The notes beneath the pieces were generated by a model that was not told the origin of the DNA, searched no databases, and saw only the letters and a program-made list of their open reading frames with translations. This document shows positions 14,960 to 15,001 of a stretch of DNA of 64,000 nucleotides, in pieces (position 1 is the first letter of the stretch; every line of letters starts with the position of its first letter). The stretch is from Egibacter rhizosphaerae (lineage in GTDB: Bacteria; Actinomycetota; Nitriliruptoria; Euzebyales; Egibacteraceae). Where the stretch lies: NCBI RefSeq assembly GCF_004322855.1, contig NZ_CP036402.1:3968001-4032000 (forward strand), given 5' to 3'. Made by a program: the position numbers and the translations under genes.

Positions 14960-14977
14960 TTGTGAAACACTTCACAA
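14960..14977. promoter_or_regulatory. CRP/GlxR-type operator 1 upstream of ndh
   Basis: A perfect TGTGA-N6-TCACA site (TGTGA at 14961-14965, TCACA at 14972-14976), extended to TTGTGA...TCACAA. This is the consensus bound by CRP-family regulators, including GlxR of corynebacteria. It lies about 90 bp before the NDH-2 start codon. Confidence 0.75.
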
Positions 14978-14981
14978 GAGA

Positions 14982-15001
14982 CTTGTGAACCTGATCACAA
15001 G
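14982..15001. promoter_or_regulatory. CRP/GlxR-type operator 2 upstream of ndh
   Basis: A second perfect TGTGA-N6-TCACA site (TGTGA at 14984-14988, TCACA at 14995-14999) with flanks CTTGTGA...TCACAAG. Its centre is 23 bp from that of operator 1, about two helical turns, so two dimers could bind the same face of the DNA. Confidence 0.75.

Follow-up and report, generated by a model that had tools for sequence, protein, structure and literature searches.

Two perfect TGTGA-N6-TCACA palindromes without mismatches, TGTGAAACACTTCACA (positions 14961-14976) and TGTGAACCTGATCACA (14984-14999), were found by pattern search in the window (the whole stretch of 64,000 nucleotides of the Egibacter rhizosphaerae genome analyzed here), 68 to 107 bp 5' of ndh, the gene for a type-II NADH dehydrogenase (NDH-2). 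Judging from their extended sequence, the two palindromes most probably (we estimate about 0.93) form a twin operator for Rex, an NADH/NAD+-sensing repressor encoded elsewhere in the genome, which would repress ndh until NADH rises. The initial annotation had read the two sites as CRP/GlxR-type operators that place ndh under cAMP- or CRP-family control and link respiration to carbon supply. Our search agrees that both sites are there, with centres 23 bp apart and with NDH-2 encoded by the next gene, and they do look like real operators that couple the non-pumping NDH-2 to the state of metabolism; it is the regulator, cAMP with CRP/GlxR, that finds no support. The features discussed are listed in Table 1.

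Table 1. Features of the twin operator region and candidate regulator genes (positions are those of the window unless a contig is given)
Feature	Position	Strand	Remarks
Putative Rex operator 1, TTGTGAAACACTTCACAA	14960..14977	.	14/14 consensus positions
Putative Rex operator 2, TTGTGAACCTGATCACAA	14983..15000	.	13/14 consensus positions; 23 bp from operator 1, centre to centre
Unnamed reading frame, 233 aa	14187-14888		twin sites lie between this frame and ndh
ndh, type-II (non-pumping) NADH:quinone dehydrogenase, 453 aa	15068-16429	+	presumed regulated gene; PF07992, PF22366
rex	contig 2705741-2706661		NF003992, PF06971
CRP/FNR-family regulator	G000:C1:3649360-3650103		cNMP and HTH_Crp_2 domains

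The interpretation changes because the palindrome continues beyond the 16-mer core, by one base outward and, in three of the four half-sites, by one base inward (TTGTGAA/TTCACAA), an extension missed by the initial annotation. Flanks included, the two sequences are TTGTGAAacacTTCACAA and TTGTGAAcctgATCACAA; compared with the Rex operator TTGTGAANNNNTTCACAA, an 18-bp palindrome with a free centre, the former is a full match and the latter has one mismatch, at an inner position; its right arm reads ATCACAA. This operator has been proven in Streptomyces avermitilis and, with an A/T centre, in Staphylococcus aureus, published examples being TTGTGAAWWWWTTCACAA from S. aureus and TGTGAACNNNTTCACA from S. 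coelicolor (PMC5355995, PMC2883068). Here, the centres of the two sites are ACAC and CCTG. A scan for consensus promoters near the twin sites revealed no sigma-70-like promoter. The product of ndh contains the Pyr_redox_2 (PF07992, 180 bits) and NDH2_C (PF22366, 32 bits) domains of Pfam and has relatives in the same class that are 49-59% identical. The genome has a second NDH-2-like gene (G000:C1:326767-328026), 34% identical to the ndh of the window, near which no Rex-like site was found at up to 2 mismatches.

The product of rex scores 354 bits against the NCBIfam model NF003992 (cut-off 226), has both Pfam domains, and matches solved Thermus-type Rex entries with up to 172 bits, the VRKDLSY-GSYGTRGVGY stretch being conserved. 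It gives the one strong match to PF06971 in the genome (73.7 bits); a second match (contig position 1809339, 23 bits, below the cut-off) was discarded, the frame resembling a different kind of DNA-binding regulator. Downstream of rex, the cluster continues with another reading frame and then hemA and hemC. Rex was detected in 37 of the 41 genomes; in G007, whose assembly is only about 78% complete, the ndh operator is present and Rex was not found.

Sites of the same type are found at other known actinobacterial Rex targets. The direct targets of Rex in S. avermitilis include nuo, atp, wblE (a whiB-type gene) and ndh2 (PMC5355995). In this genome ATGTGAAACGGATCACGA lies some 40 bp 5' of the reading frame of a FAD reductase gene that precedes nuoA, TCGTGAAACAATTCACAT lies within the atp cluster, 5' of both atpB and a Cg1360-like gene, and TTGTGCGCGCCTTCACAA lies some 130 bp 5' of a whiB gene adjoining pdtaS, each with two to three departures from the 14-position consensus; control by the same Rex would extend to nuo, atp and the whiB-type gene. 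When up to 2 mismatches to TTGTGAN6TCACAA are allowed, the genome has 19 matches besides the two ndh sites, the nuo, atp and whiB sites among them, against 13 for the reversed control pattern, so that most single weak matches are to be attributed to chance. Some 320 bp away from the whiB-linked site there is another Rex-like site, TTGTGAAGTCAGGCACAA (G000:C1:1344654-1344671; L027:6655-6672), which lies 5' of a glycerophosphodiesterase-like gene encoded on the opposite strand.

In the relatives, the 1.5 kb upstream of the first gene of nuo, of atpB, of ndh and of rex was searched, and an operator was counted when at least 11 of the 14 consensus positions matched. Operators were found upstream of nuo at 24 of 29 loci, of atp at 15 of 29, of ndh at 5 of 20 (no more than one locus in four) and of rex at 0 of 29. 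All downstream parts of the same loci together had one, and shuffling of the nuo set gave 0.2 of 29. The 47 sites in relatives have nearly fixed arms and four free central bases, which is what one expects of Rex operators. A pair of sites likewise stands in front of ndh in three relatives, with a spacing of 22 bp in G011 and G019 and of 23 bp in G032. In a scan of the class, perfect twin sites were confined to this genome (G000), G011 and G008, and twin sites with mismatches were also seen in G019 and G032.

That a cAMP-bound protein of the CRP family binds both sites and links ndh to carbon supply is very unlikely. The core of both sites is indeed that of the CRP/GlxR operators of Corynebacterium glutamicum, the 16-mer TGTGA-N6-TCACA being also a GlxR consensus (PMC7999487), and the genome does encode one CRP-family regulator. 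GlxR, however, prefers TGTGANNTANNTCACA, with a central TA (PMC4254451) that is absent from both sites in the window, and the extended motif, which is that of Rex, recurs before nuo, atp and whiB. CRP/GlxR regulons are usually large, whereas a genome scan of the kind proposed in the initial annotation returned no perfect site besides the ndh pair. The domain search showed two cNMP-binding proteins in the genome, a histidine kinase in which no HTH was found and the CRP-family regulator; other matches to HTH_Crp_2 score weakly, none of them above the cut-off. The nearest solved structures to the latter protein are GlxR and its mycobacterial relatives, yet in alignments to solved GlxR/CRP it has GVLPALGEDRYPDSA at the position of the GlxR stretch GELSIFDPGPRTSSA and so has lost the Glu and the Arg that we take to be cAMP ligands, and its recognition helix, whose residues presumably read TGTGA, is CAPETASR as opposed to ASRETVNK in GlxR. 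The search for a CRP/GlxR gene yields a member of the family that differs from GlxR at these presumed key residues; domain search and alignment found no cAMP-binding CRP/GlxR with a RET-type recognition helix in the genome. Moreover, orthologues of this protein at an identity of at least 50% are present in just 3 of 40 relatives and were not detected in G011 and G019, both of which have twin sites. On the strength of the domain searches, the GlxR/CRP alignment and the orthologue distribution, CRP/GlxR was rejected as the regulator.

A scenario in which Rex is the main regulator and a second protein that reads TGTGA half-sites also binds one of the sites, for example site 2, appears highly improbable as well. 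The motifs of Rex and of CRP/FNR-type proteins overlap, one inner position of site 2 deviates from the Rex consensus, and ArcR, a Crp/Fnr-type protein, binds some S. aureus Rex target promoters in vitro (PMC2883068). ArcR, however, had no significant influence on the transcription of the S. aureus genes tested (PMC2883068), and G011 and G032 also have twin sites in which both arms are Rex-like. There is hardly any likelihood that the palindromes arose by chance and have no function. Single imperfect matches are common, and with up to 2 mismatches the window has 6 sites against 11 expected, but the two perfect copies 23 bp apart are the only perfect ones in the genome (a single contig of 4,637,169 bases, examined by pattern searches), in which the reversed control pattern occurs perfectly once. 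By our own arithmetic about 1-2 perfect sites are expected per genome and the chance of two within 23 bp is about 1e-5 to 1e-4, in keeping with the earlier statement that such a perfect pair would rarely arise by chance. In addition, relatives keep the sites in the same place although the central bases of the sites have diverged. The twin palindromes upstream of ndh are a real, conserved regulatory element, beyond chance.

Rex represses its targets at low NADH and is released at high NADH, as shown in Streptomyces, Bacillus and Staphylococcus (PMC5355995, PMC2883068), and by analogy with other species the binding of Rex, its sensing of NADH and the direction of control are expected to be the same in this organism. 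When NADH is low, Rex would occupy both operators and ndh would be repressed; as NADH rises, Rex would bind it and leave the DNA, allowing expression of ndh, and the NDH-2 produced would oxidize the excess NADH to NAD+ until repression is restored. The spacing of 22-23 bp, about two helical turns, would bring two Rex dimers to roughly the same side of the DNA. Our guess would be that Rex binds cooperatively to the twin operator; the arrangement would be a natural one for measuring the cooperativity of Rex.

The control is of a well-known kind, with ndh an ordinary member of a Rex regulon, in an actinobacterial lineage that has received little study. In S. avermitilis and S. coelicolor, the targets of Rex are ndh2, nuoA-N, atpIBEFHAGDC, wblE, rex-hemACD and cydABCD, and the genome described here resembles Streptomyces in operator sequence, in targets (ndh, nuo, atp and a whiB gene) and in the rex-hem gene order. 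In contrast to S. avermitilis, with one three-mismatch site at ndh2, the two best sites of this genome stand in tandem at ndh. Two other features depart from Streptomyces. The gene for cytochrome bd subunit I, a classic Rex target, is absent from the genome, and rex has no full operator upstream, either here or in 29 relatives (rex loci L068-L097), although the half-site TTGTGAACAG directly precedes it in this genome. Autoregulation of rex through a full site therefore seems to be absent from this group; since the rex gene of S. aureus likewise lacks an operator (PMC2883068), an autoregulatory site is not a defining property of the Rex family. The yjlC-ndh genes of Bacillus subtilis offer another parallel, a type-II NADH dehydrogenase under Rex in an NADH feedback loop (PMC5355995), albeit in a different phylum and with a more degenerate consensus, WWTGTGAANTNNTNNNCAAW (PMC5355995). 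The respiratory regulon of Rex (ndh, nuo, atp and whiB) can be extended to this lineage, and TGTGA-N6-TCACA in G+C-rich actinobacteria, easily misread as a CRP/GlxR site, can be a Rex site.

Only two points strike us as mildly unusual: the spacing of the twin sites is conserved, and rex is not preceded by a full autoregulatory site. It is conceivable, if rather doubtful, that a twin Rex operator with a fixed spacing of 22-23 bp (in three copies in G008) acts in this class as an NADH sensor, cooperative and switch-like, for ndh and a small number of further genes, with rex not autoregulated; a twin-operator switch of this kind, lacking rex autoregulation, would represent a distinct design of Rex circuit. 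When the comparison was widened to 80 ndh loci of named genomes, an operator was found upstream in 14, including loci from Acidimicrobiales and Chloroflexota, and only one close pair was seen (L211), one member of which is weak. In G008 (L100; G008:C14, about 926-987), a biotin-carboxylase-like gene, which the papers compared do not list as a target of Rex, is separated from a cupredoxin-like lipoprotein gene by three Rex-type operators at 22-bp steps.
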